Below, in pieces: positions 994 to 28,324 of a stretch of 64,000 nucleotides of DNA. Both the position numbers and the translations under genes were made by a program. Under the pieces are notes generated by a model. It did not search any database. It had not been told where the DNA came from and was given only the letters and a program-made list of their open reading frames with translations. Source of the DNA: Antedon mediterranea (lineage: Eukaryota; Echinodermata; Crinoidea; Comatulida; Antedonidae); assembly GCF_964355755.1 (NCBI RefSeq), contig NC_092679.1:18094932-18158931 (forward strand). Reading direction: 5' to 3'. Each line of letters opens with the position of its first letter. Position 1 is the first letter of the stretch.

Positions 994-2297
994 CATGGAT
1001 TAAAGAATAGAAGGATATGCATCGACGTGAGATCAAGGGTTCCTTGACTCTCGCCGACAGACCGCGGACCGCCCACAATGTTACAGTTTAATTAACCGCA
1101 TGGTAACAACGAAACGGTCGCGTGCCTAATATATTGTTTACTGCACATGTGCAACGACATTTAACCTTGTTGGCTACTACGCTTCTTTCGCGCGTTCTTT
1201 GGTGGCATGATGTTTGTAGATGGTCAACTATTGACTATGTTGGTTTCTGCCGCGATTGATCTACGCTAATGATTTTTTTATGATGATTAAAGTAGCATTT
1301 TATGACCTGTAGTAGCCCTACATCTGAGACAATAACTATTAGTTGTCTCATTTGTTGTAAAATTACAAAATCAGCAAGAATGCTAGCCTAGCTAGGCCCA
1401 GGCCTTGTACTAACTAGGCTAAACTGGGCTAGTAAACCCTATGATTTGCCGACATTGATACTGCCTAGGTAGGCCTAGGCTAATCTTAAATACTCACCGT
1501 TGTCTTACTTCTTGTGTGAATAATAATAATAGGTAGGCCTACTTCGTTTGTTCGTGATCAAGTTTGCCCTGCGTGTACTTTTCAAAACGACCGCTAGGTA
1601 ACGAATCGCAACTATACATAGCCAGCCAATCCCGGATCAGGGATCGCTGTTTTCATTCAATTAGGCCCGGTGATTGGATGTGATGTGGATGACATAACCA
1701 CTAGCCAATCACCAGGCACTACAGTTTAAATATAATCACATCGATAATTAAGGAGATTTATGAAGAAACCACTGCTTAGCCATATATTAAAAAACACGAT
1801 TGTTGTATGTCTGAACACCGGCCACGCTAACAACATACATGGTCAAATGCATAATTTAATATTCTATAGATTAACGCAATTTTTAATGACAGAAGATGGC
1901 AGGCAAATAATGATAATTCAAATATAAAAATGGCATATTTTATTAATATTACCAACTACCTAAAATTACCAGTCGTAAGAAAGTGAACTTTTCGTAGTCC
2001 GATTGTGATGAAACTAAAACAGAATTATTCAGCAATATATGTTTGTTATCAATTAATCATCGACGCAGACATGTCAATAGAACATTCAGACTGCGCATAC
2101 GATTTCTACATGGTTACGTTTTGGTCTCAAAAAATGTAACAGTTGATTCGCAGCGTTTTACAGAGGGCCGCGGTTAGAGACACGGAGTTCAATGAACGTG
2201 TTTGTTTGATTGGCAGCAGTGCTTTAGTATAGGCAAGCGCGTTGTAAAATCGTTTGATGTCACCGTCGATGCATATCCTTCTATTCTTTAATCCATG
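994..2297. mobile_element. 1.3-kb non-autonomous DNA transposon in receptor A
   Basis: Perfect 34-bp terminal inverted repeats (994-1027 and 2264-2297) begin CATGGATTAAAG and extend imperfectly about 12 bp further inward. The 7-bp sequence ATTGGGT flanks both ends (987-993 and 2298-2304) as a target duplication. Receptor B at about 10636 shows the related uninserted site (actgagt followed by tgacatg). No transposase frame is present. The CATG-type termini and 7-bp duplication recall the P superfamily, whose members make 7-8 bp duplications, but this assignment is tentative. Confidence 0.85.
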
Positions 2298-3366: not shown

Positions 3367-4411
3367 ACATCACTATTTTTCATTTCTGAATGAAAACTGG
3401 AAAGCGCCATAAATTGACTCTCGATTGAATCACTTATGCTTTCTATAGAGGGCAGTATATAAATATGAAAAAGCTATTATAATGTTTATGCAAGTCCGTA
3501 GCTTAACTCTAAACATTATAACTAGAGAAACCAGATAATAGAAATCTATTTGAAGATTTATATGGCAAACTAAAAATATCACTATCATACATACTAAATA
3601 TTACAACATTTACTTAATTTTTTGCAAGAATTTCAACATGTTTATATGTAAATTGTAAATGTTGTTTCATGAAGATACATTATACAGCAATAGCGCTATT
3701 TATTTACCTGACTATTAATAATCAGTGTAAAAAATCATGGCAGACGAAAGGGTGTAATTTTACTTTTTCCCGAAAATTAAATACATTGAAATAAAGGCAT
3801 GCTACCTTTCATAATTTTCGGGTCATGAAAAATGTAAGGCAAGAGGGATTTATTCCTCCCACTCTACAACCCCTCTATAATTTTTTTCTCGATCTTACAA
3901 CATTTTTCCCCAAAAAATAATGGGAGGGAGGATCGAGTCTTTATCTTTTATGTTTTATATGTAACATACAGTATACCTACCATTTCTAAGTAAAAAGGCC
4001 TATTCCATTCACAAGAAAACCAATGTATATAAAACATAAAAAAAGCAGACAAAGTCTGAAAATATTCAATATGTAAATCTAAATCAATGTAAATATATAT
4101 TATTTATCAACATGGCTGGTCCATTCGCGTGCGCAAATTTGAGTTAGTGTTTACCGACCAACCAATCAACCGACCAAATAGTGAGCTATAGAGTTGCGTT
4201 GCACGCGACTAAAAATACAAATTATTACAGTTAAAAAATTATATTTTCTAGAATCTATTCTCATCTTCCTCTTATGTACAAGAATTGACAAAAAGTCATT
4301 TTATAGCATAGGACAATAAATAGAATGGATGTTATCATAAAAAGAAACATAATACATACATACAACCAGTACATGTAATATACTTGGTAAAATGCTTGCA
4401 AAGTAATACAA
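3367..4411. other. Intergenic, with one degraded repeat end
   Basis: No gene is seen. At about 4125-4212 is a sequence ending in a GC-rich hairpin (gttgcgt / acgcgac). A similar hairpin (agtcgcgt / acgcgact) occurs at 34278-34296 next to comparable text, so this is probably the end of a dispersed repeat. Confidence 0.4.
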
Positions 4412-8412: not shown

Positions 8413-8614
8413 ATCATCAACAATAGCACAGCTAATTATCAGAATTTGTTATTATACATTGCTTCAGACTTCTTCTCTTTTACATGTCCATAGGCATATG
8501 CATATTCAGGGATAGCTTCAAATGTGGTTTGTGTTTTTTCAGTAGTTTCTTGTGCATCCTTTATTGGTAGAGATGTTTGGTAGACAGGGGATTCTTCCAC
8601 CTCTAAATATATTG
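8413..8614 (-). pseudogene. Relic of a receptor tyrosine tail
   Basis: The minus-strand frame at 8439-8614 matches the last 55 or so residues of the receptor B tail: YLEV, SPVYQTSLPIKDAQETTEK, a YAYAYGHV cluster, then MYNN. Homology stops at 8614, where B continues with its TAIYLEV codons; beyond it the sequence is unrelated. With 5380-5837 this is the broken 3' half of a former receptor copy. Confidence 0.75.
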
Positions 8615-10247: not shown

Positions 10248-11816
10248 TCAGAATGTGTTATTATACATTGCTTCAGACTTCTTCTCTTTTACATGTCCAT
10301 AGGCATATGCATATTCAGGGATAGCTTCAAATGTGGTTTGTGTTTTTTCAGTAGTTTCTTGTGCATCTTTTATTGGTAGAGATGTTTGGTAGACAGGGGA
10401 TTCTCCCACCTCTAAATATATTGCAGTTTGGGCTGGTTGGTTAGAATTTGCATATGCATATGAATATTCATGATCTTTATTCAACATGGCACTGTGATGA
10501 CAACGAATCATATTCTGGTGTGAAAGAGTTTGTAATGAGGTTTGTTCTGTGGATGAAACATTTGGTACTATATATTCTGATGGCATTAGCTCCACCACTT
10601 CATCTGTTTTGGTGAAATCATCTGGACTACACTGAGTTGACATGTCTTTACTTCTACACATTTTTTTCGCTTTATTTTGTTTAGTTTTAGAGATTCTATA
10701 GATAATTATTGCTATAATGATAATGAGTATTAAAGCACATGCACAGATGATGTATACATAGACTGATGTGTGCCTACTGATAGTACTGATAGAGGTAACT
10801 TCTTCATCTGTCTCATTTTGTTTACCACTGTTTGTCTGGCTGCAGTTATTGTCATTAGTGTTATCAGGTTGTATCACATATGAATCTGATCCATGTACAT
10901 CATTAGGAGATGTCACATGACATGTCAGTAGGCTGGCAATCATTCCATCAGTGATGTTCAAGTTGAGTTGTGATGTGTTGCCCAGTTGACCTGTATTGTT
11001 CATTGTTCAGTTGTATTTGTATTCTGGACAACTGTGTCCAGTCTTGCAGTTGAATGAGGATAACTTTCCAACTTTAGAATTGCCACATGTAACAATTGTC
11101 ACTTTTATCTGAACATTTATTAATACTTTGCAGATTCCCTTTTCTAGGTCTTCAATGTGGTGTTTCCCCTGATTTGTCACATTTAAGATACATGCAAAAT
11201 ACAATAGATTTAACTTTTCTTCAACTAAAAACTCATTTTCTAAACTCAGGTGAGTTGCATTTTTGATTGATTTTATTTTTATCACAGAAATATTTTTGTT
11301 AACATTCCATTGCAGTTCTTGAGAATCAGTAGGAAATTCTTCAATGATTTTTGAGGTACAGTACAAAATCAGCAAACCTCCAACCATGTAAAATTCTTTA
11401 TTTGACTTTGAGTGACAAGTTGGTGTAGTAAAGGCAACCACATTAAGTACAGCAGGCTTGGAAGTCTTCAAAATGATGTTTGAACTATTGATGGCATGGC
11501 AGCTGTACTCCCCAGAATCTAACAATGTAACTTCTGGTGTATTGAGTTTACATGAGTCGGTCTCCTCATCAAAATCTACTTGTATCTTACTTGTTCCAGG
11601 ATGTAGAGTCTTGCTGTTATGTTTCCAAAAACAAGTCAAAGCTGGTTTCCAATCTGAAAACACACAAAGGAATTCAGCTGTTCCTTCTTCTAGAATATTC
11701 TTATCTTTTGGTTCATAAAGAAGATGAAGATCAAAGCTAAATGCAAAACTCAGCAGTAAAACGATGATTAAACTTAAAAGATTTCTTGACACCGATTTCT
11801 GAAACATGTTGACCAT
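10248..11816 (-). pseudogene. Ig-domain receptor B with one nonsense codon
   Basis: This is one continuous frame of about 522 codons except for TGA at 11007-11009. Receptors A and C have TGG (Trp) there, in the CKYNW motif, the core Trp of the third Ig domain. Before the stop are a signal peptide and two Ig-like domains nearly identical to receptor C. After it come the rest of domain 3, a membrane segment (YVYIICACALILIIIIAII), and a tail shared with receptor A: CSPDDF, SEYIVP, a YSYAYAN cluster, YLEV, SPVYQTS, YAYAYGHV and MYNN. No frameshift accompanies the stop, so the change is recent, polymorphic or a sequence error. If translated as is, the 269-residue product would be a secreted two-Ig protein. 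The TM/tail part alone has a downstream Met but no signal peptide. Confidence 0.8.
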
Positions 11817-13076: not shown

Positions 13077-14681
13077 TTATTCTGATGAGTTTTGTTCTGG
13101 AGTGTCACTGTTCAGTGTGAAATAAAAGACATTTTTCGGAACAGGATTAACCATTTCATCATTCATGCTCTGAGAAGGGTTTGACAATTCCGTACTGTAT
13201 GAATTAGTTTCTAAAGAATCCAGTGTAAAATAAAACACACCAGCTGCATCCGTCTGTCTATCTAGGTTTATGGACCCTATGGCATTATTATTGTTTGCAG
13301 AGCTGGCGTATGCGTGTTCTGTTGTACCAGCATCCTCAAATGTGGATGACTTTCCAAAATCGTTATCGTGCATAAATGATGATAAACTTCTAACAGGAAA
13401 GGCAGATGTAGGAGCAGCTGATACAAAGGATATGTCGCTTGTGGTGAAGGTTGATGGAGTAACTAAAGGGTTGTCTGGTATAACTGCATACATGGCACTA
13501 CCAGAATAGTTTTCTGCTAAAATACTATTGCCTTCATTGGGGGAAAGAGAAGGTATTTTAGTAACAGAATAAGTGATGCAACATGGAAAATGTTTATATG
13601 ATTGGTAGATACCAACACTAATGAGTGACAATACAACAAAGGTTGTTGAAACAGAGATAGCGACAACAAGATAAACTGAAGTAACTTCTTCATTTGTCTC
13701 ATTTTTTTTACAACTGTTTGTCGGACTGCAGTTATTGTCATTAGTGTTATCAGGTTGTATCACGTATGAATCGGATCCATGTACGTAATTAGAAGATGTC
13801 ACATGACATGTCAACTGACTGCCAATCATTTCATCAGTGATGTTCAAGTTGAGCTGTGATGTGTTGTCCAGTAGATTTGTATTGTTCATTGTCCAGTTGT
13901 ATTTACATTCTGGACAATAATGTCCAGTCTTACAATGAAAAGAGACTGTCTTTCCAACAGAAATGCTAGATGCAACAATTGTCACATTTGTCCGAACATA
14001 TTTTATTGATATTTTGCAGTTCTTATTTTCTGAATCTTGTAAATTTGTCACATTCAAGATACAAGCAAATTGCAATTTATTTAACTTTTCTTTGACTAAA
14101 AACTCATTTTCTAAACTCAAGTGGGTTGCATTAGTTGTTGACTTTGTTTTTATAAAAGAAATATTTTTGTTAACATTCCATTCCAGTCTTTGAGAATCAG
14201 TAGAAATTTCTTCAATAATTTTTGAGGTACAGTACAAAATTAGCACATCTCCAACCATGTAAAATTCTTTATTTGATTGACAAGTTGGTGTAGTAAAGAC
14301 AACGACATTGAGTACAGCAAGCTCAGAAGACTTTAGAATGATGTTTGAACTATTGATGGCATGGCAGCTGTACTCTCCAGAATCTAACAATGTGACTTCT
14401 GGTATACTGAGTTTACATGAGTCAGTCTCCTCATCAAAATCTACTTGAATCTTACTAGTTCCAGGATGTAGCGTCTTGCTTTTATGTTTCCAAAAACAAG
14501 TCAAATCTGGTTTCCAATCTGAAAACACACAAAGAAATTCAGCTGTTTCTTCTTCTAGAATAGTCTTATCTTTTGGTTCATAAAGAAGATGAAGATCAAA
14601 GCTAAATGCAAAATTCAGCAGTAAAATGATGGTTAAACTTAAAAGATGTTTTGACGCAGATTTCTGAAACATGTTGACCAT
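13077..14681 (-). CDS. Ig-domain receptor C with ITIM-like tail
   Basis: This is an intact single-exon frame of 534 residues. The signal peptide spans about 1-28. Three Ig-like domains follow: C51/W64/C106 (with DSGEYSC), C151/W168/C207 and C250/W263/C292, with many N-x-S/T sites. The membrane segment is about 335-358, followed by a Cys pair. The tail of about 175 residues carries VFYFTL twice (Tyr484 and Tyr520). Both match the ITIM consensus [SIVL]xYxx[LVI], which in known receptors recruits SH2 phosphatases when phosphorylated. SAMYAVI (Tyr398) and EHAYAS are other tyrosine sites. The ectodomain is nearly the same as receptor B up to the EEVTS residues just before the membrane, where similarity ends abruptly. 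An inhibitory partner of B is therefore likely but not shown. Confidence 0.85.
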   Translation of the reverse strand: MVNMFQKSASKHLLSLTIILLLNFAFSFDLHLLYEPKDKTILEEETAEFLCVFSDWKPDLTCFWKHKSKTLHPGTSKIQVDFDEETDSCKLSIPEVTLLDSGEYSCHAINSSNIILKSSELAVLNVVVFTTPTCQSNKEFYMVGDVLILYCTSKIIEEISTDSQRLEWNVNKNISFIKTKSTTNATHLSLENEFLVKEKLNKLQFACILNVTNLQDSENKNCKISIKYVRTNVTIVASSISVGKTVSFHCKTGHYCPECKYNWTMNNTNLLDNTSQLNLNITDEMIGSQLTCHVTSSNYVHGSDSYVIQPDNTNDNNCSPTNSCKKNETNEEVTSVYLVVAISVSTTFVVLSLISVGIYQSYKHFPCCITYSVTKIPSLSPNEGNSILAENYSGSAMYAVIPDNPLVTPSTFTTSDISFVSAAPTSAFPVRSLSSFMHDNDFGKSSTFEDAGTTEHAYASSANNNNAIGSINLDRQTDAAGVFYFTLDSLETNSYSTELSNPSQSMNDEMVNPVPKNVFYFTLNSDTPEQNSSE

Positions 14682-15402: not shown

Positions 15403-16575
15403 TTATACAGCTTCTCCTTCTTGATTTACACTTATTTTTATTGTTTCTGTACCTGTCCTAGTAACCTTTTTTTTAGGTGTTAAGCCAGGAAGATAAAATT
15501 TTGCAGAATGCTTTAACTTAATTTTGCCAATAAAAACTGCAACTATAGTAAGACAAACAATGCATCCTATTGTTACTGGTAATATTACAATCAGATTTGT
15601 TGTTTCTTTGTTCACTGAATTTTGTTCCAATTGTGTTGAAATCTTATTAATTGTTTTTTGATGATTTACATTTAGGATATATGTAGCATTTCCCGTAGCA
15701 AAATATTTAGAAGCAATGCAAGTTGTATGACAATCGTTCATTTTTTTTGTTATATTGTTGATTCTATTGTCAGAGATTTTGAAATTGTTTTTTACGTCAT
15801 TATTGCAGTTTTCAAACATCCATTGGTACGAAACATCTTCAAAATGTTCTTTTATATTGCATGTTATACTATTGTATTTGAAATCTGGCGTAATATGCAC
15901 ATGAAGTTGATTAGTGATGTTTAACGGTTTTGTAGTACACACACGTGGAACTTGTTCTCCATTCGCCGTCATCATGCATTTATAATCGTCACCGTGTTTC
16001 ATCATAGAAGCTGGAAATATTGCAGATAATGTTGTGTATTCTGTATTTTCCAACAAATTCAATTCTGCTCCTTCAGGAATATCGAGCCATTCCATTTTAA
16101 AGTCCCCTCTAGTTTCAGAAGTACATGATATTACCACATCTTCACCATCAATGTACATATCACTAGATAGGCTACAGTACGGATATTGTCTATCTGCTAC
16201 ATCATGAACAGTTAATTTACCTGCTTTGGACTTGGCTATAATGTCTGTTCCATATAGTACAACACATTGATAATTTCCTTCATCTGACATTTTAACGTCT
16301 GAAATCTCCAGAATTACATTTCTCCTATCAACATCAAACCTCTCTTTATCATTGTAGTCCGGGGTGAAAAGAGCTCCGTCTTTCCACCAGTTGAATGTTA
16401 TTTGGTTTAGGTCTGCTAATTCTCCATGCAGGATGCATATCAATTTAACATTACTGTGTTTATAAGCTTGAATATCTTCTGGATGGAATGCAATAGTGAC
16501 ATCCACACAGAGACTTTTTGAAATTAAAATGTAAAAGTAACACAAAACCACTACAACCTGCTTTATTGAAGCCAT
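15403..16575 (-). CDS. Ig-domain receptor D with short tail
   Basis: This is an intact single-exon frame of 390 residues. The signal peptide is about 1-23. Ig-like domains are C47/W63-64/C104 (with DEGNYQC), C151/W163/C200 and C239/W252/C286. The membrane segment spans about 327-349 and has no charged residue. The cytoplasmic tail is only about 40 residues, with one tyrosine (FYLPG) and no ITIM or ITAM match. It is clearly diverged from A-C in sequence but has the same three-domain plan and orientation. It may signal through a partner or act as a decoy; the sequence does not decide. Conserved Cys/Trp positions make the Ig call firm. Confidence 0.85.
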   Translation of the reverse strand: MASIKQVVVVLCYFYILISKSLCVDVTIAFHPEDIQAYKHSNVKLICILHGELADLNQITFNWWKDGALFTPDYNDKERFDVDRRNVILEISDVKMSDEGNYQCVVLYGTDIIAKSKAGKLTVHDVADRQYPYCSLSSDMYIDGEDVVISCTSETRGDFKMEWLDIPEGAELNLLENTEYTTLSAIFPASMMKHGDDYKCMMTANGEQVPRVCTTKPLNITNQLHVHITPDFKYNSITCNIKEHFEDVSYQWMFENCNNDVKNNFKISDNRINNITKKMNDCHTTCIASKYFATGNATYILNVNHQKTINKISTQLEQNSVNKETTNLIVILPVTIGCIVCLTIVAVFIGKIKLKHSAKFYLPGLTPKKKVTRTGTETIKISVNQEGEAV

Positions 16576-17578
16576 GATTTTGATTGAAATTTTATTTCAA
16601 ATTTTCCCACTCAAACTCATTTTTAAGTAGGGGGAGTGTGCATTTTTTATAGTTAAAAAAGCCATAAAAATATATCTAATTCTTTTTCCTTTACAGTATT
16701 CTTTCTATCTTCAAAATTAAATTTGCAATTTTTAATTATTTTTTGCAAATTACATTACAAATGTTTATATTTATTATTTTAACTACATAACTATTGTATT
16801 GGACGTGTGTATTTAATAATGGTATCAACCATCAACCAACCGTTTCTTTTCATGTGATAACATTGTTTGGTCCTGTGCCAGACTAAATATAGATTACAAA
16901 GCATTGATACACTTGAGCAAGTTCAAACTAGTTACTGCTAAATAGGCATATACAGTACAGTAGTTGCTAGAACTAATATGATCTTTATTGTTCGAGGTTC
17001 AAACTAAAAGTATTCTAATCTACTTTAATATATTTTATTAGGGGGTGGGGGTTCGTGTAAAATAATGATTAATATTCTTTGTGGTTATACCATGGACCTA
17101 TACATTTATAGGTCCATAGTTATATACACAGAATATTGTGGTTATACAGGATACTGTGGTTATCACACAGGGTGCTAAATTGCATAGTGCTACGAGTACA
17201 GATGATACTTTATTAATATCTGTTTATAGTGGTTGTTGTCAGTAACTATTTATTAAATTAAAGTTTAAAATTATTTGGCTAAAAAATGAGGTTATGGCTA
17301 TCTCTTTAATTAAGTGTGAAGCTGTACTGAATCATGTTAATTTTTAGACATATATTTATTAAAAATCTATAATATGAAGGATACTATATTACTATATATA
17401 AGCAGTTTTCTTTAATATTATCTTATTATATTGTTTGTTTGTTTGTATATCAAATTAATAGGTACTTGATTTTCTTGAGTTTTGATAGTTTGTAGACTTT
17501 AGCTGTTTTGGTCACTATATCTATGACCAAATATTGTGTGAAAATAAGGAAAGTATTGCTATAGTGAGTAATAATATA
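16576..17578. other. Intergenic upstream of receptor D
   Basis: No gene is seen. A small hairpin at about 17093-17121 (atggacctata / tataggtccat) is the only structure noted. Confidence 0.35.
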
Positions 17579-17823
17579 AGTTCCCTTTCGACAGTCCTTT
17601 TTTTCCTTTTCACTTCCTTGTTCTTTGTTATTCTTGTTTTCATGTCGGAATTAAATACAGTATATCAAATCAAATATTAGGAAGAACAAGGAAGAGTGAA
17701 ATAGCACAATTTCACTCTTCCCTGCTGGGAAGAATATAGGAAGAGAAAAATAAAGAGAAAGGCATCACTTCTTATGATTCATGCTGAAGTTTAAGTTCTT
17801 CATATGCTGAATCATTAAAAAGT

Positions 17824-18621
17824 TTATCTATATTGTTCATGTCTATCATTTTTTTTTTCGTCTTTCTTAGTTGCTTCTCCAAAATGATGTTCATCTTGTT
17901 TGCGGCTCTTTTCGTTGCTATCATCTAATCTATTTGATTTAACACCTTTTTCCTTTCTTCCATCATTTCTTTCCATGACATCATTCTCATTGTTTTCTAT
18001 ACTGTCATACTCTTTGCTGTTTCGTTCATTAATATCATCATCTTTCTTATTATTTAAGATCCCCATGATTTCATCCTCCAATGTCATCTCAGAGTTCCTT
18101 TGTGGAATCAATATTTCTTTCGCCTCACCCACTGGTAGATTACTTTTCGTCATCTTGTCTATTACACTGTAGGCCGGATCTGTAGTTTCCTCATACACAC
18201 TCTCTAGTGACTGCCTTCCTAATGTGCTCTTTGACAATGCTGGCATGCTACTTAAGCTCGGCAGCGGAGGAGGCAGCATCTCTGACATTTGCTGCGTAAC
18301 TGGCAGCGTGTTTATCGATGCAGAATCAAGAGCTTGCAAATTTATCGACACAGAATCAGAATTCTGTAGTGTATCACTGGTGAGATAACACCGGGGTATT
18401 GTTGTGTTCTGAAGAGTGTACGATCCAAAATTGGAATTAGAAGGGGAAATTAGTAGATGGGACGAATAGTTACGATTATTAAACATCAGTCCTTGATGAC
18501 TCATCATGTTTCTTTCATGTTCGTTGTATTTCAACTTGTAGAGAAATTTACAGCACATGAAAATGATCAATATTGCTAATAAAACTGCTATAATAATAAC
18601 GACAATTGGTATAAATTCCAT
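17824..18621 (-). CDS. Membrane-anchored tyrosine-tail protein, copy 1 (C-terminal frameshift)
   Basis: The frame encodes 265 residues. Met-Glu-Phe is followed at once by a membrane anchor (about 4-22), a Cys pair (FMCCK) and a basic stretch, so the N-terminus should face outside with practically no ectodomain. The tail has a PPPLP proline motif, VYEET, AYSVI and EYDSI. Compared with copies 2 and 4, a run of T on the plus strand (about 17850-17859) has 10 bases where the others have 9 (TTTTCTTTT). This shifts the frame in the Lys codons, so the product ends KNDRHEQYR and loses the SAYEEL site. The undisturbed stop remains at 17772-17774. A splice acceptor (TTACAG) lies 30 bp upstream of the ATG. 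The architecture resembles LAT-type adaptors; no sequence homology to them is claimed. Confidence 0.75.
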   Translation of the reverse strand: MEFIPIVVIIIAVLLAILIIFMCCKFLYKLKYNEHERNMMSHQGLMFNNRNYSSHLLISPSNSNFGSYTLQNTTIPRCYLTSDTLQNSDSVSINLQALDSASINTLPVTQQMSEMLPPPLPSLSSMPALSKSTLGRQSLESVYEETTDPAYSVIDKMTKSNLPVGEAKEILIPQRNSEMTLEDEIMGILNNKKDDDINERNSKEYDSIENNENDVMERNDGRKEKGVKSNRLDDSNEKSRKQDEHHFGEATKKDEKKNDRHEQYR

Positions 18622-18723
18622 TGTTTGACTTTTCTTTTTTCGGATACAACTCTGTAATTAATAAAAATGTAAAAAAGCTACATTCAATAAATAAATATAT
18701 TTAATTGTTCTACCTTCTCCATT

Positions 18724-18724
18724 G

Positions 18725-18785
<61 letters not shown>

Positions 18786-18790
18786 TATAT
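18724..18790. repeat. (TA)n microsatellite
   Basis: A pure TA tract in unit 1. Shorter versions occur at about 20667-20697 and 22777-22808 in units 2 and 3. Confidence 0.9.
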
Positions 18791-19109
18791 TAATACTACT
18801 TTTCTAATATTACTTTTCTAATTTCTTTTGTTTTCTGTAAGAAAATGTAAATTTATTTATAATTGTTCATTATTGTCCTAGTATAACAGTTAGGCCTACA
18901 GTAACATGTTAGTTTATATATTGTTTTTTATTTGTTTCTCCACACTCCAACAATTTAATGGAGTAATATAAAACATAAGGGGTTACCCCGGTGTACTAGT
19001 ACATCACAGCCACTGATCATTAACTGGGCCCTCTGGGAGACCAGTCTTTCAATGAAGAGGTCTCTCAGTATAAATATTAATAAATCAATAAATAATATAA
19101 ATAATTTAC

Positions 19110-19140
19110 CTTGTGATCAGATCTGTTGATTCCTTATATC
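19110..19140 (-). other. 31-nt putative 5' leader exon of copy 1
   Basis: It is bounded on the minus strand by TTCTTTTAG| and CACAAG|GTAAATTA. Spliced to the coding exon acceptor it places an in-frame TAA upstream of the ATG, so it is noncoding. Conserved in units 2 and 3. Confidence 0.5.
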
Positions 19141-19713
19141 CTAAAAGAATTACTTTGTGTTCTTTAAAACACGTTTTCTATTCCGAAGGTGTTTGCATCA
19201 TTCTTTTTCTTTCATGTTATGTATTTCTATTTTGGATTTGCATACTTTGTACCTGATAATATTGACTAATATCGATTTTGTAAAATTTTCGGTATGAGTA
19301 GTTTCTATCGGTTTGATAAAGATTTTTGTGTTTCTTCCTTGTTTCGTATAATTAAGTTTGGTTTTAATCAAATTGATAGTACGAACGAACTTGCGTTTGT
19401 TACCCCTAAACGTTAATATTCAAATGAAAAAAGTACAGAGACTAATACAAAAATAAATGTAATTAATTCAATAACATATTTATGACACAGGAGGGACACT
19501 TCTTTTTTTTTTTCTAAAGTATATATATCTGTTCGTTTTTGTTCAATGTAATATAAGTTCGTTTTCGACAGTCCTTTTTTTTCTTTTCACTTCCTTGTTC
19601 TTTGTAATTCTTGTTTTCATGTCGGAATTAAATACAGTATATCAAATCAATATTAGGAAGAACAAGGAAGAGTGAATATAGGAGGAGAAAAATAAAGAGA
19701 AAGGCATCACTAC

Positions 19714-20562
19714 TTATGATTCATGCTGAAGTTTAAGTTCTTCATATGCTGAATCATTAAAAAGTTTATCTATATTGTTCATGTCTATCATTTTCTTTTC
19801 GTCTTTCTTAGTTGCTTCTTCAAAATACTGTTCATCTTGTTTGCCGCTCTTTTCGTTGCTATCATCTAATTTATTCGCTATAACATCTTTTTTTTTTCTT
19901 CCATCATTTCTTTCCATGACATCATTCTCATTGTTTTCTATACTGTCATACTCTTTGCTGTTTCCTTCATTAATATCATCATCTTTCTTATTATTTAAGA
20001 TCCCCATGATTTCATCCTCCAATGTCATCTCAGAGTTCCTTTGTGGAATCAATATTTCTTTCGCCTCACCCACTGGTAGATTACTTTTCGTCATCTTGTC
20101 TATTACACTGTAGGCCGGATTTGTAGTTTCCTCATACACACTCTCTAGTGACTGCCTTCCTAATGTGCTCTTTGACAATGCTGGCATGCTACTTAAGCTC
20201 GGCAGCGGAGGAGGCAGCATCCCTGACATTTGCTGCGTAACTGGCAGCGTGTTTATCGATGCAGAATCAAGAGCTTGCAAATTTATCGACACAGAATCAG
20301 AATTCTGTAGTGTATCACTGGTGAGATAACATCGGGGTATTGTTGTGTTCTGAAGAGTGTACGATCCAAAATTGGAATTAGAAGGGGAAATTAGTAGTTG
20401 GGACGAATAGTTACGATTATTAAACATCAGTCCTTGATGACTCATCATGTTTCTTTCATGTTCGTTGTATTTCAACTTGTAGAGAAATTTACAGCACATG
20501 AAAATGATCAATATTGCTAATAAAACTGCTATAATAATAACGACAATTGGTATAAATTCCAT
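19714..20562 (-). CDS. Membrane-anchored tyrosine-tail protein, copy 2 (intact)
   Basis: This is an intact frame of 282 residues. The anchor spans 4-22 and is followed by Cys23-Cys24, a plausible palmitoylation site as in LAT and NTAL, and a basic KFLYKLK stretch. The rest is a hydrophilic, probably unstructured tail with proline motif PPPLP (117-121), VYEET (Tyr143), YSVI (Tyr151), YDSI (Tyr205), a Lys/Asp/Glu-rich part, and SAYEEL (Tyr273), which fits [SIVL]xYxx[LVI]. There is no catalytic domain. The ATG is the first in frame: the leader exon at 21203-21233 carries a stop in this frame. I infer a scaffold that docks SH2/SH3 proteins at the membrane. An unrelated fast-evolving membrane protein is the alternative. 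Confidence 0.8.
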   Translation of the reverse strand: MEFIPIVVIIIAVLLAILIIFMCCKFLYKLKYNEHERNMMSHQGLMFNNRNYSSQLLISPSNSNFGSYTLQNTTIPRCYLTSDTLQNSDSVSINLQALDSASINTLPVTQQMSGMLPPPLPSLSSMPALSKSTLGRQSLESVYEETTNPAYSVIDKMTKSNLPVGEAKEILIPQRNSEMTLEDEIMGILNNKKDDDINEGNSKEYDSIENNENDVMERNDGRKKKDVIANKLDDSNEKSGKQDEQYFEEATKKDEKKMIDMNNIDKLFNDSAYEELKLQHES

Positions 20563-20697
20563 TGTTTGACTTTTCCTTTTTCGGATACAACTCTGTAATT
20601 AATAAAAATGTAAAAAAGCTACATTCAATAAATAAATATATTTAATTGTTCTACCTTCTCCATTGTATATTATATATATATATATATAATATATTAT

Positions 20698-20884
20698 ATT
20701 GCACTTGCACTGATGAAGGGCTAGTGTTGCCCGAAAGCTCTGCTAACTTTTCTGGCTGTTTACTTTATCGTTTTGATTTAGCTTTTCGCTTTTTATTTTT
20801 GTATCTCCATTGAGATCCAGCCACTGATACCCACAGCATTGTCATTTTTTTCAGTAATTTGCCTTTGGATTTATATAATATATT
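20698..20884. repeat. Inserted repeat of about 190 bp in unit 2
   Basis: It is absent from unit 1 and flanked by repeats of TATAATATATTA, consistent with a target duplication. It includes tgatgaagggctagtgttgc and cccgaaagctctgc. Its family was not recognised. Confidence 0.6.
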
Positions 20885-21202
20885 AAATAATACTACTTTT
20901 CTAATATTACTTTTCTAATTTCTTTTGTTTTCTGTAAGAAAATGTAAATTTATTTATAATTGTTCATTATTGTCCTAGTATAACAGTTAGGCCTACAGTA
21001 ACATGTTAGTTTATATATTGTTTTTTATTTGTTTCTCCACACTCCAACAATTTAATGGAGTAATATAAAACATAAGGGGTTACCCTGGTGTACTAGTACA
21101 TCACAGCCACTGATCATTAACTGGGCCCTCTGGGAGACCAGTCTTTGACTGAAGTGGTCGCCCAATATAAATATTAATAAATAAATAATATAAATAATTT
21201 AC

Positions 21203-21233
21203 CTTGTGATCAGATCTGTTGATTCCTTATATC
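21203..21233 (-). other. 31-nt putative 5' leader exon of copy 2
   Basis: Sequence and splice signals are the same as at 19110-19140. Confidence 0.5.
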
Positions 21234-21990
21234 CTAAAAGAATTATTTTGTGTTCTTTTTTTCATGTTTTCTATTCAGAAGGTCCATAGATTCAATTTAT
21301 AATGTTTGCATCATTCTTTTTCTTTCATGTTATGTATTTCTATTTTGGATTTGCATACTTTGTACCTGATAATATTGACTAATATCGATTTTGTAACATT
21401 TTCGGTAAGAGTAGTTTCTATCGGTTTGATAAAGATTTTTGTGTTTCTTCCTTGTTTCGTATAATTAAGTTTGGTTTTAATCAAATTGATAGTACGAACG
21501 AACTTGCGTTTGTTACCGCTAAACGTTAATATTCAAATGAAAAAAGTACAGAGACTAATACAAAAATAAATGTAATTAATTCAATAACATATTTATGACA
21601 CTGGAGGGACACTTCTTTTTTTTTCCTAAAGTATATATATCTGTTCGTTTTTGTTCAATGTAATATAAGTTCGTTTTCGACAGTCCTTTTTTTTTCTTTT
21701 CACTTCCTTGTTCTTTGTAATTCTTGTTTTCATGTCGGAATTAAATACAGTATATCAAATCAATATTAGGAAGAACAAGGAAGAGTGAATATAGGAGGAG
21801 AAAAATAAAGAGAAAGGCATCACTACTTATGATTCATGCTGAAGTTTAAGTTCTTCATATGCTGAATCATTAAAAAGTTTATCTATATTGTTCATGTCTA
21901 CCATTTTCTTTTCGTCTTTCTTAGTTGCTTCTTCAAAATACTGTTCATCTTGTTTGCCGCTCTTTTCGTTGCTATCATCTAATTTATTCG

Positions 21991-22671
21991 CTATAACATC
22001 TTTTTTTTTCTTCCATCATTTCTTTCCATGACATCATTCTCATTGTTTTCTATACTGTCATACTCTCTGCTGTTTTGTTCATTAATATCATCATCTTTCT
22101 TATTATTTAAGATCCCCATGATTTCATCCTCCAATGTCATCTCAGAGTTCCTTTGTGGAATCAATATTTCTTTCGCCTCACCCACTGGTAGATTACTTTT
22201 TGTCATCTTGTCTATTACACTGTAGGCCGGATTTGTAGTTTCCTCATACACACTCTCTAGTGACTGCCTTCCTAATGTGCTCTTTGACAATGCTGGCATG
22301 CTACTTAAGCTCGGCAGCGGAGGAGGCAGCATCTCTGACATTTGCTGCGTAACTGGCAGCGTGTTTATCGACACAGAATCAAGAGCTTGCAAATTTATCG
22401 ACACAGAATCAGAATTCTGTAGTGTATCGCTGGTGAGAAAACACCGGGGTATTGTTGTGTTCTGAGTGTACGATCCAAAATTTGAACTGGAAGGGGAAAT
22501 TAGTAGATGGGACGAATAGTTACGATTATTAAACATCAGTCCTTGATGACTCATCATGTTTCTTTCATGTTCGTTGTATTTCAACTTGTAGAGAAATTTA
22601 CAGCACATGAAAATGATCAATATTGCTAATAAAACTGCTATAATAATAACGACAATTGGTATAAATTCCAT
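21991..22671 (-). CDS. Membrane-anchored tyrosine-tail protein, copy 3 (frameshifted)
   Basis: The frame encodes 226 residues: anchor, Cys pair, PPPLP, VYEET, YSVI and YDSI as in copy 2, then it ends RKKKML. A plus-strand T run at about 22001-22009 has 9 bases where copies 2 and 4 have 10. The frame therefore breaks in the Lys codons and about 57 residues with the SAYEEL site are lost. The original stop survives at 21827-21829. Copy 3 shares SYTQN (one codon shorter) and CFLTS with copy 4, but its anchor with copies 1 and 2, so it is a mosaic of the two types. Confidence 0.75.
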   Translation of the reverse strand: MEFIPIVVIIIAVLLAILIIFMCCKFLYKLKYNEHERNMMSHQGLMFNNRNYSSHLLISPSSSNFGSYTQNTTIPRCFLTSDTLQNSDSVSINLQALDSVSINTLPVTQQMSEMLPPPLPSLSSMPALSKSTLGRQSLESVYEETTNPAYSVIDKMTKSNLPVGEAKEILIPQRNSEMTLEDEIMGILNNKKDDDINEQNSREYDSIENNENDVMERNDGRKKKML

Positions 22672-22808
22672 TGTTTGACTTTTCCTTTTTCGGATACAAC
22701 TCTGTAATTAATAAAAATGTAAAAAAGCTACATTCAATAAATAAATATATTTAATTGTTCTACCTTCTCCATTGTATATTATATATATATATATATATAA
22801 TATATTAT

Positions 22809-22995
22809 ATTGCACTTGCACTGATGAAGGGCTAGTGTTGCCCGAAAGCTCTGCTAACTTTTCTGGCTGTTTACTTTATCGTTTTGATTTAGCTTTTCGC
22901 TTTTTATTTTTGTATCTCCATTGAGATCCAGCCACTGATACCCACAGCATTGTCATTTTTTTCAGTAATTTGCCTTTGGATTTATATAATATATT
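22809..22995. repeat. Inserted repeat of about 190 bp in unit 3
   Basis: Essentially identical, in sequence and position, to 20698-20884; inherited by duplication. Confidence 0.6.
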
Positions 22996-23313
22996 AAATA
23001 ATACTACTTTTCTAATATTACTTTTCTAATTTCTTTTGTTTTCTGTAAGAAAATGTAAATTTATTTATAATTGTTCATTATTGTCCTAGTATAACAGTTA
23101 GGCCTACAGTAACATGTTAGTTTATATATTGTTTTTTATTTGTTTCTCCACACTCCAACAATTTAATGGAGTAATATAAAACATAAGGGGTTACCCTGGT
23201 GTACTAGTACATCACAGCCACTGATCATTAACTGGGCCCTCTGGGAGACCAGTCTTTGACTGAAGTGGTCGCCCAATATAAATATTAATAAATAAATAAT
23301 ATAAATAATTTAC

Positions 23314-23344
23314 CTTGTGATCAGATCTGTTGATTCCTTATATC
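23314..23344 (-). other. 31-nt putative 5' leader exon of copy 3
   Basis: Same exon and splice signals as at 19110-19140. Confidence 0.5.
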
Positions 23345-23937
23345 CTAAAAGAATTATTTTGTGTTCTTTTTTTCATGTTTTCTATTCCGAAGGTCCATAG
23401 ATTCAATTTATAATGTTTGCATCATTCTTTTTCTTTCATGTTATGTATTTCTATTTTGGATTTGCATACTTTGTACCTGATAATATTGACAAATATCGAT
23501 TTTGTAACATTTTCGGTAAGAGTAGTTTCTATCGGTTTGATAAAGATTTTTGTGTTTCTTCCTTGTTTCGTATAATTAAGTTTGGTTTTAATCAAATTGA
23601 TAGTACGAACGAACTTGCGTTTGTTACCGCTAAACGTTAATATTCAAATGAAAAAAGTACAGAGACTAATACAAAAATAAATGTAATTAATTCAATAACA
23701 TATTTATGACACAGGAGGGACACTTCTTTTTTTTTTTCTAAAGTATATATATCTGTTCGTTTTTGTTCAATGTAATATAAGTTCGTTTTCGACAGTCCTT
23801 TTTTTTCTTTTCACTTCCTTGTTCTTTGTAATTCTTGTTTTCATGTCGGAATTAAATACAGTATATCAAATCAATATTAGGAAGAACAAGGAAGAGTGAA
23901 TATAGGAGGAGAAAAATAAAGAGAAAGGCATCACTAC

Positions 23938-24786
23938 TTATGATTCATGCTGAAGTTTAAGTTCTTCATATGCTGAATCATTAAAAAGTTTATCTATATT
24001 GTTCATGTCTACCATTTTCTTTTCGTCTTTCTTAGTTGCTTCTTCAAAATACTGTTCATCTTGTTTGCCGCTCTTTTCGTTGCTATCATCTAATTTATTC
24101 GCTATAACATCTTTTTTTTTTCTTCCATCATTTCTTTCCGTGACATCATTCTCATTGTTTTCTATACTGTCATACTCTTTGCTGTTTCCTTCATTAATAT
24201 CATCATCTTTCTTACTATTTAAGATCCCCATGATTTCATCCTCCAATGTCATCTCAGATTTCCTTTCTGCACTCAATGTTTCTTCCTCCTCACCCACTGG
24301 TAGATTACTTTTTGTCATCTTGTCTATTACACTGTAGGTCGGGTCATCTGTAGTTTCCTCATACACACTCTCTAGTGACTGCCTGCCCAATGTGCTCTTT
24401 GACAATGCTGGCATGCTGCTTAAGCTCGGCAGCGGAGGAGGCAGCATCTCTGACATTTGCTGCGTAACTGGCAGCGTGTTTATCGACACAGAATCAAGAG
24501 CTTGCAAATTTATCGACACAGAATCAGAATTCTGTAGTGTATCGCTGGTGAGAAAACACCGGGGTATTGTTGTGTTCTGAGTGTACGATCCAAAATTTGA
24601 ACTGGAAGGGGAAATTAGTAGATGGGACGAATAGTTACAATTATTAAACATCAGTCCTTGATGTCTCATCATGTTTCTTTCATGTTCATTGTATTTTAAC
24701 TTGTAGAGAAATTTACAGCACATGAAAATGATCAATATTGCTAACAAAACTGCTATAATACCAACGACCGTTGCTATAAACTCCAT
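23938..24786 (-). CDS. Membrane-anchored tyrosine-tail protein, copy 4 (intact)
   Basis: This is an intact frame of 282 residues with the copy 2 plan: anchor with Cys pair, PPPLP, VYEET, a YSVI site, YDSI and terminal SAYEEL. The anchor start (ATVVGIIAVLLAI) is closer to the protein at 26744-27247 than to copies 1-3. A segment after YSVI (EEEETLSAERKSEM) differs from the EAKEILIPQRNSEM of the others. The coding exon begins at an acceptor (ATTACAG) 33 bp upstream of the ATG, and a TGA lies in frame between them. This excludes an in-frame ectodomain spliced on at this acceptor, so the tiny extracellular part is real for this copy. Probably the oldest member of the array. Confidence 0.8.
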   Translation of the reverse strand: MEFIATVVGIIAVLLAILIIFMCCKFLYKLKYNEHERNMMRHQGLMFNNCNYSSHLLISPSSSNFGSYTQNTTIPRCFLTSDTLQNSDSVSINLQALDSVSINTLPVTQQMSEMLPPPLPSLSSMPALSKSTLGRQSLESVYEETTDDPTYSVIDKMTKSNLPVGEEEETLSAERKSEMTLEDEIMGILNSKKDDDINEGNSKEYDSIENNENDVTERNDGRKKKDVIANKLDDSNEKSGKQDEQYFEEATKKDEKKMVDMNNIDKLFNDSAYEELKLQHES

Positions 24787-24836
24787 TGTTCCACTTGTCC
24801 TCTTTCAGATATTACAACTCTGTAATTTATAGAAAC

Positions 24837-26079
24837 AAATAAAAATGTAGTTAAACGCTATAAAAGCTACTTTCATAAAATAAATACTGTACTGGTATAT
24901 TTTGTTGTTCTGCCTTATCCATTGATGCAGTACTGTACTAGTATTTAGTAATACGAAACAGGATGGGAAGCCAAAGGACGGTGCTCATGAATAATTTATG
25001 CATGACCTTTAACAAAGTGGCCAGGTCTTAGTGTGAAATTCTGTCGTCATAACATGAAATTCTGTCATCTTAACTTTTTGAAGAAGATGAAGTTAGCATT
25101 TTCCTGTTAACTAGAAATAATGTACATATAAAACCTTAAATATACAGTTTAAATTCAACTTAAAAGTGGAATTTTCGAAACTCTAAATAATATTTGAACT
25201 TTAATTGAACTAATTTAATTGTTTAACCAAATAGCATTTGTATTGGGTTGAAATGGCTGTGTTAAAAGCAATACATTTTGCACGGCGTTGGAATGCGACA
25301 TTCAGAAGGACCCCTGCAAGACAGGGGAGGGAGTGAGATACTGCTGTTCTAGACACCCAAATCAATATACCCAGGCCATACCTAGTATGTAGCCTAACTA
25401 CTGCCATTAGTACCTAGGTATGCCCCCTAGGCTAGCCCTAATAATAATAATATAGGCCAAGCCTTGTAGTAGTAGTATTACTAGGCATGGTTGTCTCCCT
25501 CTGGCCAGTCGTCGTCTTTGCGCAAGGATACCGCAACTAATAAAATGGCTATGTTGACTGTTTATTATTTGACGTACCAGCAAACTCAGAATCTTCGTCG
25601 TCCTCCCCCTTCCCGTTCTGTTACGTAAAGTCCCTACTATTATTACATTAGGACGATAATGAACAATATATAAATACTGTACACTATACAGTTTGTAAAA
25701 AACATGAAAATTGAAGGTAAATAAAACTTTGAATAGGCATTTTGTAGTTTTGATAAAGGTAATCACTTCTGTAGAAAAAAAAATTATGTTTTCACTTATA
25801 AAAAGAGAAAAAATAAAACAGACTATTTAAACTATATTTTGCTTTAATTTGCAGTTTTTTGTTTTTTCAATTTTTTTTTGGATCAAATTTTTGATATCTT
25901 TAATTAGTTTCAACAGAATGAATGTTTGTTTTATTAGGATGAGAACCTTTTTTGTTTTGTGTAGGAAAAATTTAAATTTATCTACTTTATTTATCATCGT
26001 TTGTTATTGCTGTAGTGTAATAAATAGGCTTTTGCAGTTACCATGTTAGTTTAAATATACAATTTTGATAGTAATTTAC
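24837..26079. other. Intron/intergenic upstream of copy 4
   Basis: Holds AGGCCTA/CCTAGG-type motifs around 25380-25500. Around 25680-25830 is a diverged piece similar to text at 39880-40010 and 41950-42060 (the TTAA element family). No coding exon is seen. Confidence 0.4.
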
Positions 26080-26105
26080 CTTGTGATCTTGTTGCTTCCT
26101 ACGTC
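26080..26105 (-). other. 26-nt putative 5' leader exon of copy 4
   Basis: Between TTCTTTCAG| and CACAAG|GTAAATTA. It aligns with the 31-nt exon of the other units, 5 nt shorter; the length change is tolerable only if noncoding. Confidence 0.45.
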
Positions 26106-26743
26106 CTGAAAGAAAACTATCATTTGTGTTTAGTTCCTTTCTAATTTGTACATCCATTTGTATACAATTCTTGTTCTTTTTGTGTTTTCTATTTTTGCAT
26201 ACTTTGTACAGTACCTGATTATTTTGACTAATATCGATTTTGTAACATTTTCGATATGAGTAGTTTCTATCGGTTTGATGAAGATTTTTGTATTTCTTCC
26301 TTGTTTTGTATAATTAAGTTTCGTTTTTTCAAATAAAAGTTGACATCATTTTTATATAGCTGTTTAGAAATATAACAGACTTGCATATAAATACGGCAGT
26401 AATTGTTTACTGTTATTATACAAAACAGTAAACAAAAAATTAGTAGATCGTTTACCATACCTAAAGAGCCAACAACATCGGCATGGATTCGAACAAGTCT
26501 TCTCGGATAAGGTCCAGTGTACACAGTTTGCTTGTGTGCACTTTAGTAGAAGTTAACCAGGTGAACTGGTTCCCAAAATTGCCTCTGTATCTGAACAGTG
26601 ATTAATTTACTATTGGTAATCCTTGGCCACATGTGCCTATAAATACATACAGTAACAAAAATAGATTAAAAAAAATGAAGTACAGTGCCCTTAAAGAATT
26701 CATCGATATTTTACATTGTTGTATCTTTTTCCATAGCAACTTC

Positions 26744-27247
26744 TTATACACTAGTTTCATAGTAAGAGATTGCTTCAGCTATTGACTTCTCTTTTACATA
26801 TGCATATGCATGTTCAGTAATATCTTGAGTTTTTTCAGTAGTTTCTTGTGCATCTTGTATTGGTAGAGAGGTTTGGTAGGCAGGTGATTCTTCCACTTCT
26901 AAGTATAGTGCAGTTTGCGGTGGTTGGTTACAATTTGCATATGCATATGAATATTCACTACCTTTATTCTTATTCAAAATGGAACCAGGATTTTCTCTGT
27001 TGTGGTATTGGCAACTGTGTTGACATGGGCCGCTATTCTGATGTGGAAACATTTGTGATGAAGTGTGTTCTGCTGATGTAATATTTGGTACTTCTGACAT
27101 TAATTTTGGTTGTACCACTACTTTATTGAAATCTTCTGAATTACGCTGTTCTCTGAATATCAACTTGTACACAAATTTACACCACAGAAATATGATCAAT
27201 ATTGCTAACATAACTGCTATAATACCAACGACCCTTGCTAACTCCAT
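26744..27247 (-). CDS. Membrane-anchored protein with receptor-type tyrosine tail (chimera)
   Basis: The frame encodes 167 residues. The first 30 or so (VVGIIAVMLAILIIFLWCKF, then YKL) match the anchor of copies 1-4. The tail instead matches receptors A and B: CQHSC.YHNRENPG, a YSYAYAN cluster, ALYLEV, SPAYQTSLPIQDAQETTEK and HAYAYVKEK. There is no signal peptide and no Ig domain. An in-frame TGA between the splice acceptor and the ATG rules out a spliced ectodomain through this acceptor in this frame. The Tyr-Ala-Asn site could bind Grb2-type SH2 domains. It looks like a receptor-tail module put on an adaptor anchor, and could act as an adaptor version of the A/B signalling tail. Function is inferred from layout only. 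Confidence 0.75.
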   Translation of the reverse strand: MELARVVGIIAVMLAILIIFLWCKFVYKLIFREQRNSEDFNKVVVQPKLMSEVPNITSAEHTSSQMFPHQNSGPCQHSCQYHNRENPGSILNKNKGSEYSYAYANCNQPPQTALYLEVEESPAYQTSLPIQDAQETTEKTQDITEHAYAYVKEKSIAEAISYYETSV

Positions 27248-27631: not shown

Positions 27632-27667
27632 CTTTAAGAGGACACAGATATTGTTGCATCCTTACAT
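27632..27667 (-). other. 36-nt putative 5' leader exon of the 26744-27247 gene
   Basis: Between a T-rich acceptor (TTTTTTTAG|) and CTTAAAG|GTAAATGA; positioned like the leader exons of the array genes. It contains short ATG codons followed by stops. Confidence 0.4.
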
Positions 27668-28324
27668 CTAAAAAAAACATACAGTATGCTGTTATAGTTC
27701 TTGTTTCACATAATCTATTTCAAATAAATTGGATTTTTTCTGCCAATTCCCCTTTTTTAAAAATAATATTTTTTTTTGGACTATACTACCACTGGATTGA
27801 CTAGTATCGATATTTTTAACATTTTCGATATGACTAGTAGTAACTAGCAGTTAATAAAGATCTTTTCTTTGTTTTTGTAATTACAGATTTTGATCAGTAA
27901 CCATAATTGAATCTAAAATGTTGAAAAATGTCTAAGAAACATTAACTTAGCAAAATATATTTTTAGGGACAGACACCTATGTAAGGAAAACATTTTGTTT
28001 TTTTCTGAAATTTATTTTGATTTTGTGGTGTTTTTTATTTATTTTCAGTTGTTTGCAAGATACTATTGTTAGTTCTTCGTCATACTTACCATTTTTGTCA
28101 TTCTATCGCAAATGTCTTGCTGATGCCTTGTTGTGTGACAGAATAAATATGCAAAACACAGGTACGGTATTTTATGATGGTATGAATTAATTACCTTGTA
28201 TACGGTAGGCCTAAACACATCATAGTCTGTTTATTCATATGGTTCTGTATCTCATAAAAGTAGTGCTTTATGAAATCATAGGTTCAACATCATTAGGTCA
28301 AAGGTTACTAATTTTTGTTTCTAG
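27668..28324. other. Boundary between the immune cluster and the next gene
   Basis: This stretch lies between the minus-strand cluster and the plus-strand gene at 28325. I see no exon I can support, though a first exon of the next gene may be here. Confidence 0.35.

Follow-up and report, generated by a model that had tools for sequence, protein, structure and literature searches.

The locus studied here raises the question of whether five small membrane-protein genes, lying beside a cluster of immunoglobulin (Ig) receptors in the crinoid Antedon mediterranea, serve those receptors as signaling adaptors. The window, as we call the whole stretch of 64,000 nucleotides that was analyzed (NC_092679.1, positions 18,094,932 to 18,158,931), is part of a 25-Mb contig, C10, and the genome searched comprises 354 Mb in 18 contigs. 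The Ig-receptor cluster is encoded on the minus strand of the left part of the window and of 20 kb fetched to the window's left, and the five genes, referred to below as adaptor copies 1–5, form its right end. A sequence-only reading of the window had proposed that they follow the plan of the LAT-type transmembrane adaptors. Our comparison indicates that copy 5 combines the anchor of the other copies with the cytoplasmic tail of the neighboring receptors. In our judgment the case is evenly balanced that the five genes form a local membrane scaffold set, one member of which joins a receptor tail to an adaptor anchor. Such a scaffold would work like LAT or NTAL, to which none of the sequence tests run relates it.

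Five minus-strand open reading frames (ORFs) with N-terminal anchors are present where an array of five had been claimed. Each copy is one coding exon, and the ATGs lie at 18621, 20562, 22671, 24786, and 27247.

17824..18621, minus strand: adaptor copy 1, in-frame part, 265 amino acids; C-terminal part in another frame, stop at 17772
19714..20562, minus strand: adaptor copy 2, intact coding sequence, 282 amino acids; CC anchor, PPPLP, SAYEEL
21991..22671, minus strand: adaptor copy 3, in-frame part, 226 amino acids; remainder frameshifted, stop at about 21827
23938..24786, minus strand: adaptor copy 4, intact coding sequence, 282 amino acids; helix predicted at 2-48, remainder mostly of low confidence
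26744..27247, minus strand: adaptor copy 5, intact coding sequence, 167 amino acids; chimera, with the adaptor anchor up to about codon 34 and a type-A receptor tail after it

Copies 2, 4, and 5 are intact, and copies 1 and 3 are frameshifted by A-runs that differ by a single base. With DNA identities of 94.6–98.2%, copies 1–4 are evidently recent duplicates, and copy 3 resembles, by eye, a mosaic of copies 2 and 4. By these identities the array is two lineages, copies 1–4 and copy 5, and not five independent witnesses; because copies 1–4 are such recent duplicates, the motifs common to them provide no independent evidence.

The two halves of copy 5 have different relatives. Its 5' block, leader, and anchor match those of copies 1–4, and as a genome query copy 5 recovered both these anchors and seven receptor-tail loci (53–81% identity, best E value 4.5e-26), all in the same cluster. 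In sliding 60-base windows, the score of copy 5 against copy 4 falls from 105 to 69 up to about codon 32, is 33 in the window crossing the junction, and is 14–23 thereafter, whereas the scores against the receptor tails are 20–25 before the junction and 30–95 after it, placing the switch of homology from copy 4 to the receptor tails at about codons 33–42. BLAST of copy 5 gave 88% identity to copy 4 over 162 bases and then mostly 68–80% identity to the receptor tails in the longer pieces. A homologous type-A cytoplasmic tail was found in copy 5 only, and copy 4 as a query found no receptor tail; neither copy 4 nor copy 5 had a genome match outside C10 18.08–18.12 Mb at E 0.01. The homology switch thus marks copy 5 as a chimera, in which the adaptor 5' region and anchor were joined to a receptor tail by recombination. 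Copy 5 may have gained the receptor tail, or copies 1–4 may later have changed theirs. The sequence-only reading had correctly linked the array to the receptors by adjacency but had missed that the copy 5 tail is common to them, and it is this shared tail that links the system to the receptors by descent.

The receptor genes and receptor fragments of the window are as follows.

574..999, minus strand: type-A tail of broken Ig receptor R1, a homologue of the tail of copy 5
2281..3369, minus strand: receptor R1 ectodomain with Ig domains, and membrane segment (ORF, Pfam)
8458..8614, minus strand: type-A tail fragment, from its match to the copy 5 tail
10248..11006, minus strand: receptor R2, end of ectodomain, membrane segment, and type-A tail, parted from the rest by an in-frame stop
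11007..11816, minus strand: receptor R2 ectodomain part, Ig (ORF, Pfam)
13077..14681, minus strand: receptor R3, intact single-ORF Ig receptor, 534 amino acids; its tail, of another kind, contains MYAVI and two VFYFTL sites
15403..16596, minus strand: receptor R4, single-ORF Ig receptor, 397 amino acids, short tail

The intact receptors, namely Ra (707 amino acids, stop to stop), Rd (482), Re (571), R3 (534), and R4 (397), are each one open frame comprising a signal peptide, three Ig domains (counted by eye), a membrane segment, and a tail; R1, R2, Rb, and Rc are broken by stops, frameshifts, or interruption. In R1, DMSTQSWIKE closes the ectodomain frame and the tail frame picks up again only after a further 1.3 kb downstream, which looks like an insertion in the tail. 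Pfam recognized Ig domains in all four ectodomain pieces of the window that were scanned (Ig_3, E 9.6e-8 to 3.5e-14), and the receptor profile matches solved Ig adhesion proteins, among them SYG-2 over positions 33–259; the receptor structure model is poor, with a mean predicted local distance difference test (pLDDT) score of 31.4. The tails are modular, with type A on Rb, Rc, Rd, R1, and R2, type B on Ra, both types on Re (first B, then A), and another tail on R3. Rd and Re, the intact receptors that bear type A, lie to the left of the window. Type B, which has YENQ and VYNQI sites in Ra, had no genome matches other than Ra and Re. Re (L002 5075-6790), with its B and A tails, is a second case of tail-module shuffling besides copy 5. 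In Rd (L002 2017-3465) a Lys lies inside the membrane core at the position where the near-identical R1 core has Thr.

The adaptor copies appear to be transcribed separately from these receptors. Used as a genome query, the 168-base block that precedes copy 4 matched five sites, one ahead of every adaptor copy, with identities of 100, 85, 85, and 84%, and 90% over a core of about 42 bases, in a search where the absence of a match does not establish rarity. Between this block and the coding sequence sits a predicted leader mini-exon, flanked on the left by a pyrimidine tract and AG and on the right by AAG/GTAAAT; in copies 1 and 4 its left boundary was set by eye, as the automatic boundary was too long.

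19200..19373, minus strand: conserved 5' block of copy 1, either promoter or first exon, by sequence matching
21313..21486, minus strand: conserved 5' block of copy 2, by sequence matching
23424..23597, minus strand: conserved 5' block of copy 3, by sequence matching
26167..26334, minus strand: conserved 5' block of copy 4, by sequence matching
27797..27838, minus strand: core of the conserved 5' block of copy 5, by sequence matching
19110..19140, minus strand: predicted 5' leader mini-exon of copy 1, 31 nucleotides, in-frame TAA; left boundary by manual reading
21203..21233, minus strand: predicted 5' leader mini-exon of copy 2, 31 nucleotides, by splice-site prediction
23314..23344, minus strand: predicted 5' leader mini-exon of copy 3, 31 nucleotides, by splice-site prediction
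26080..26105, minus strand: predicted 5' leader mini-exon of copy 4, 26 nucleotides; left boundary by manual reading
27632..27667, minus strand: predicted 5' leader mini-exon of copy 5, 36 nucleotides, by splice-site prediction

Joining of the leader to the conserved acceptor TTACAG/AGTTG is predicted to place an in-frame stop ahead of the ATG in all five copies, as a TGA within exon 2 between acceptor and ATG in copies 4 and 5 and as a TAA in the conserved leader exon in copies 1–3. Because of these predicted stops the copies are unlikely to be spliced receptor tail exons, and no Ig ectodomain was found in the same gene as any of them. In-frame splicing to an ectodomain, the finding on which the sequence-only reading had been prepared to give way, by way of the conserved acceptor appears closed to copies 4 and 5; for copies 1–3 it is unlikely and would need an unseen exon. 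Matches of an R3 query within the window all lie at 2359-14681; R4 is not among them, and a distant Ig exon to the right could be missed. The upstream stretches of copies 2, 4, and 5, compared over an 84-kb cluster stretch that also served for the Markov controls below, matched other adaptors and no receptor upstream region. The 5' block and the splice sites are kept while other intron parts diverge. Together these features indicate, at the level of predicted gene structure, five independent genes. By eye, the upstream introns of copies 2 and 3 also carry a repeat-like insert (20701-20877 and 22812-22985), which is not present in that of copy 1.

The predicted membrane architecture is that of a type III membrane protein with a very short outside segment, a single N-terminal helix, and a long disordered inside tail, and in this respect the earlier proposal holds as a prediction. 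In copies 2, 4, and 5 the hydropathy cores start at residues 6, 3, and 3, leaving 5, 2, and 2 residues outside, so that the 3–5 outside residues originally given apply to copy 2 but not to copies 4 and 5. In these three intact copies the residues ahead of the core carry a net charge of -1 and those after it +1 to +3, in agreement with the basic stop described previously; Arg at residue 5 of copy 5 falls inside the core as placed. The cysteines at the inner membrane edge are likewise as first reported, CC in copies 1–4 and a single Cys (WCK) in copy 5, and could be palmitoylated. An AlphaFold model of copy 4, built from only 3 sequences, contains a confident N-terminal helix (blocks 82, 93, and 86) and a short helix at 181–191 (LEDEIMGILNS, block mean 70), with a mean pLDDT of 48.5 and 185 of 282 residues below 50. 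Six ORFs with an anchor at most 10 residues from Met followed by a tail of at least 105 amino acids were found in 163,932 bases scanned, which are loci picked for their receptors and do not give a genome-wide rate; these are the five adaptor copies and the signal peptide of one broken Ig receptor. Ten Markov copies of the 84-kb cluster contained no ORF of this plan, and the anchor-plus-long-tail architecture exceeds chance. The charge asymmetry and the homology of the copy 5 tail to the Ig-receptor tails suggest that the tails lie inside the cell. For copy 5 this is very probably so, because the Ig domains of the homologous receptors should be outside, and the same homology ties the array to receptor signaling.

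The earlier statement that the copies have no sequence match to LAT-type adaptors stands after Pfam and PDB profile searches. For copies 2, 4, and 5, the listed Pfam matches include no adaptor family at E values up to 1 and then up to 10, a range in which HMMER filters drop most matches above about 0.1, and the PDB profile search matched no adaptor; membership of the LAT family was rejected for want of a match. The Pfam library includes a SCIMP model, which appeared at E 0.17 for a receptor tail. Homology of the copy 1–4 tail to the receptor tails is not claimed, the pairwise hints being weak (in the best three of ten pairs, the score was reached by 10, 18, and 52 of 1000 shuffles) and the two tail profiles failing to match (probability 0.1). 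Homology of the anchors to receptor membrane segments is kept as a hint, with mixed DNA evidence: at the protein level, the score against Ra was reached by 1, 0, and 4 of 500 shuffles and that against Re by 26, 0, and 104 for copies 2, 4, and 5, respectively, and at the DNA level Ra and Re gave 59 and 75 of 300 shuffles for copy 4 and 7 and 3 for copy 5.

Copies 1–4 carry a tail of their own, with a PPPLP motif, confirmed here in all four, and tyrosines in an acidic context. The C-terminal SAYEEL site attributed to these copies is indeed encoded in each of them, but single-base differences in A-run length shift it to another frame in copies 1 and 3, and only copies 2 and 4 read it in frame. 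There it fits the inhibitory consensus [SILV]xYxx[LIV], for which the count expected by composition is 0.4. Tyrosine density is ordinary in copies 2 and 4 (3.2 and 2.8 per 100 amino acids) and is 7.4 per 100 in copy 5. In a motif-shuffle test of six classes in seven tails, with uncorrected p values, receptor Rd gave p = 0.014 for YxN, and copy 5 has two YxN sites with 0.75 expected (p = 0.175). The immunoreceptor tyrosine-based activation motif (ITAM) pattern was found in none of the seven tails tested, and the hydropathy cores of copies 2, 4, and 5 contain no acidic residue. Six of the ten tyrosines in the copy 5 tail fall in scorable columns (at least three receptors) and are kept at 0.917, compared with 0.429 for Ser/Thr and 0.625 for the remaining residues (p = 0.026 by permutation), in an alignment without the 8458-8614 fragment and with Rb and Re hand-trimmed at the ends. 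Possible readers of phosphorylated tyrosines are represented by 53 SH2 exon matches in the genome.

From these features we infer phosphorylation, SH2 docking, and a scaffold role. Engagement of the Ig receptors would lead membrane-bound Src- or Syk-type kinases to phosphorylate the tails of receptors and adaptors alike, with the adaptors holding SH2- and SH3/WW-domain effectors at the membrane. The adaptors would thereby act as extra, receptor-free docking sites that scale the signal, at a level set by their own promoter and not by the receptors. Selection on the coding sequences is consistent with function. Copies 2 and 4 differ with a nonsynonymous divergence (dN) of 0.035 and a synonymous divergence (dS) of 0.094, a ratio of 0.38, and 23 of the 38 changes are nonsynonymous (p = 0.0035 for so few or fewer), demonstrably fewer in this sequence comparison than under neutrality; copy 5 against six receptor tails gives dN/dS values of 0.52–0.66, and gene conversion may distort all of these ratios.

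That distortion is one of several points that weigh against a scaffold. The ratios for copy 5 are individually weak (one-sided p = 0.03, 0.05, and 0.12 in the three of six pairs tested). No motif class in copies 2, 4, and 5 convincingly beats shuffles, the lowest p value being 0.042 for YxxQ in copy 2, and copies 2 and 4 have no YxN (Grb2) site. Tyrosine conservation, which the sequence-only reading had expected, is unsupported in copies 1–4, where the tyrosine windows of copies 2 and 4 are no less diverged (6 of 56 positions) than the rest (15 of 194, p = 0.58), and one tyrosine site is lost in copy 1 and another in copies 3 and 4; these copies are too young to show such conservation. The failure of the copy 1–4 tail profile to match that of the receptor tails, the frameshifts in two of the five copies, and the broken state of four of the six receptors with a copy 5-type tail (R1, R2, Rb, and Rc) point in the same direction. 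Finally, two receptor tails from Ig-receptor arrays on contig C3 gave 75 and 83 genome matches as queries, among which tail-only anchored genes were not recognised, frames of 54, 57, 66, and 307 amino acids not having been examined. In the first query, 74 of the 75 matches lie in open frames of 429–536 amino acids and the other in one of 133, and five of the 83 matches of the second lie in frames of 54, 57, 66, 133, and 307 amino acids; the 133-residue frame, at the same place for both queries, directly follows an Ig ectodomain frame with a stop between and is a cut receptor.

A scaffold remains our first choice, and a decoy or sink comes second. As decoys, receptor-like tails without ectodomains, above all copy 5, would compete for kinases and SH2 effectors and so damp or gate the receptors. 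Copy 5 would suit this role in carrying the receptor tail itself and not a new one, under its own 5' block, as would the inhibitory consensus at SAYEEL in copies 2 and 4. However, the tail of copies 1–4 is a different one, and a single site resembling an immunoreceptor tyrosine-based inhibitory motif is about what composition predicts, leaving this explanation unlikely. Rather more doubtful is the view that the genes are functionless, ectodomain-less debris of a fast-duplicating receptor cluster, whether transcribed or not. It would account for the frameshifted copies, the several broken receptors nearby, and the recent tandem duplication with its mosaics, which by eye resemble gene conversion. 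It accords less well with the three intact copies, the dN/dS of copies 2 and 4, and the retention of 5' block and splice sites in otherwise diverging introns, and the C3 tail matches described above, with their four short frames, revealed no such debris.

Sorting of the Commissureless/PRRG4 type is improbable. Here a proline motif would bind WW-domain ubiquitin ligases and Ig-domain receptors would be taken to endosomes. The motif PPPLP is presumably of the WW/SH3 type, and the Commissureless model (Comm, PF15957) is the Pfam model matching most members, two of three, with a best E value of 0.093 over the anchor and the following tail; the FlgO model has a lower E value, 0.048, in one member. 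The Comm score of 13.4 bits is nevertheless far under the curated cut-off of 27, so that family membership is not assigned, no PPxY was seen by eye, and the receptor tail of copy 5 would be left unexplained. Least probable is that the copies are alternative cytoplasmic exons spliced in frame to Ig ectodomain exons, an idea invited by the acceptor just upstream of each ATG and the receptor-type tail of copy 5, since every one of these exons encodes a membrane helix and an ATG of its own behind the predicted stops, each intact receptor is a single ORF that already includes a membrane segment, and the R3-query matches, with the limit noted above for R4 and distant exons, all lie within the receptor region.

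Other receptors were encountered during the searches. The C3 arrays (11.87–11.90 Mb and 18.70–18.91 Mb; L004, L005, and L007) are large tandem arrays of single-ORF Ig receptors with frames of mostly about 430–540 amino acids and short tyrosine-containing tails; in the array at 11.87–11.90 Mb, which has 18 copies, the tails are 86–100% alike, and this big intronless Ig-receptor family merits its own study. A distant receptor at C10:23.55 Mb (L003 4240-5376), 52% identical to R3, has a very short tail and, by eye, an Arg in its apparent membrane segment, like receptors needing a signaling partner. Elsewhere in the window, 37907-38623 is a mitochondrial carrier gene by Pfam, which we take to be SLC25A29-like, and 48892-49479, without a Pfam match, is presumably a YY1-like exon. 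These two lie about 10 kb apart, and human SLC25A29 and YY1 are neighbors on chromosome 14.

Among known systems, subunits of the DAP12/CD3 type carry signaling tails, and DAP12 has a tiny ectodomain. In contrast to them, the copies have neither an acidic helix residue for receptor pairing nor an ITAM, which speaks against DAP12-like receptor subunits. The target of Commissureless is Robo. The copies resemble Commissureless/PRRG4 as short membrane proteins with sub-threshold Pfam similarity but differ in the low score and in having no PPxY. Drosophila comm is also described as a short transmembrane protein in PMC5578492, a likeness that favors sorting.

The nearest invertebrate counterpart is BHF, encoded in the fuhc allorecognition locus of Botryllus, which the review PMC12065747, in the part used here, describes as an intracellular protein that is disordered, membrane-associated, and probably palmitoylated, with Y-x-x-I/L sites, and whose disordered regions it calls reminiscent of LAT, transmembrane domain excepted. 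Both BHF and the copies are disordered tyrosine-site proteins encoded in an Ig-type receptor locus; going by its description there, BHF is set apart by having no transmembrane domain, and that part of the review mentions no receptor-derived tail for it (PMC12065747). The fester co-receptors of Botryllus and Hydractinia Alr, cited in the same part, are invertebrate Ig-type receptors with tyrosine-motif tails (PMC12065747). Those are full receptors; in the present locus an anchor without a receptor bears the tail as well, and each intact receptor is encoded by a single ORF. In open-licence literature on invertebrate LAT-like adaptors and receptor loci, including the portions of PMC5431462, PMC11999971, and PMC12065747 available to us, no comparable array was found. 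The same review portion reports LAT and SLP-76 missing from Botryllus and other ascidians, with homologues of nearly all other downstream proteins in Botryllus (PMC12065747), and in amphioxus, according to the part of PMC5431462 used, no LAT-like molecule was found and the authors suggest, among other possibilities, an unknown membrane-bound molecule instead. A membrane-anchored, receptor-free tail gene in an Ig-receptor cluster is a concrete candidate for such a missing step, and the chimeric copy 5 would illustrate one route to the origin of an adaptor, by sharing a receptor tail. If this holds, a modular receptor/adaptor system of this sort could take the place of the LAT that is reported missing from ascidians and was not found in amphioxus.

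Adaptors of the LAT, NTAL, and PAG type have a very short outside segment, an N-terminal helix, juxtamembrane Cys, and a long disordered tail with several tyrosines. In membrane plan and in the link to Ig-type receptors, the copies resemble LAT, NTAL/LAB, PAG, LAX, LIME, SIT, TRIM, and SCIMP. They differ in having no Pfam match to these proteins, in a CC or WC in place of CxxC, and in their Grb2-type sites, which are not several (copies 2 and 4 have no YxN and copy 5 has two). They differ further in forming a tandem family inside a receptor locus, where the copy 5 tail is common to the receptors. That an invertebrate has independently evolved a LAT-like scaffold family within an Ig-receptor locus, partly by placing a receptor tail on a separately regulated, receptor-free anchor, is a proposal we make tentatively. 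Invertebrate Ig receptors with tyrosine motifs were known; the apparently new element, judged from the predicted proteins, is a transmembrane-anchored set in which one member bears the receptors' own tail.

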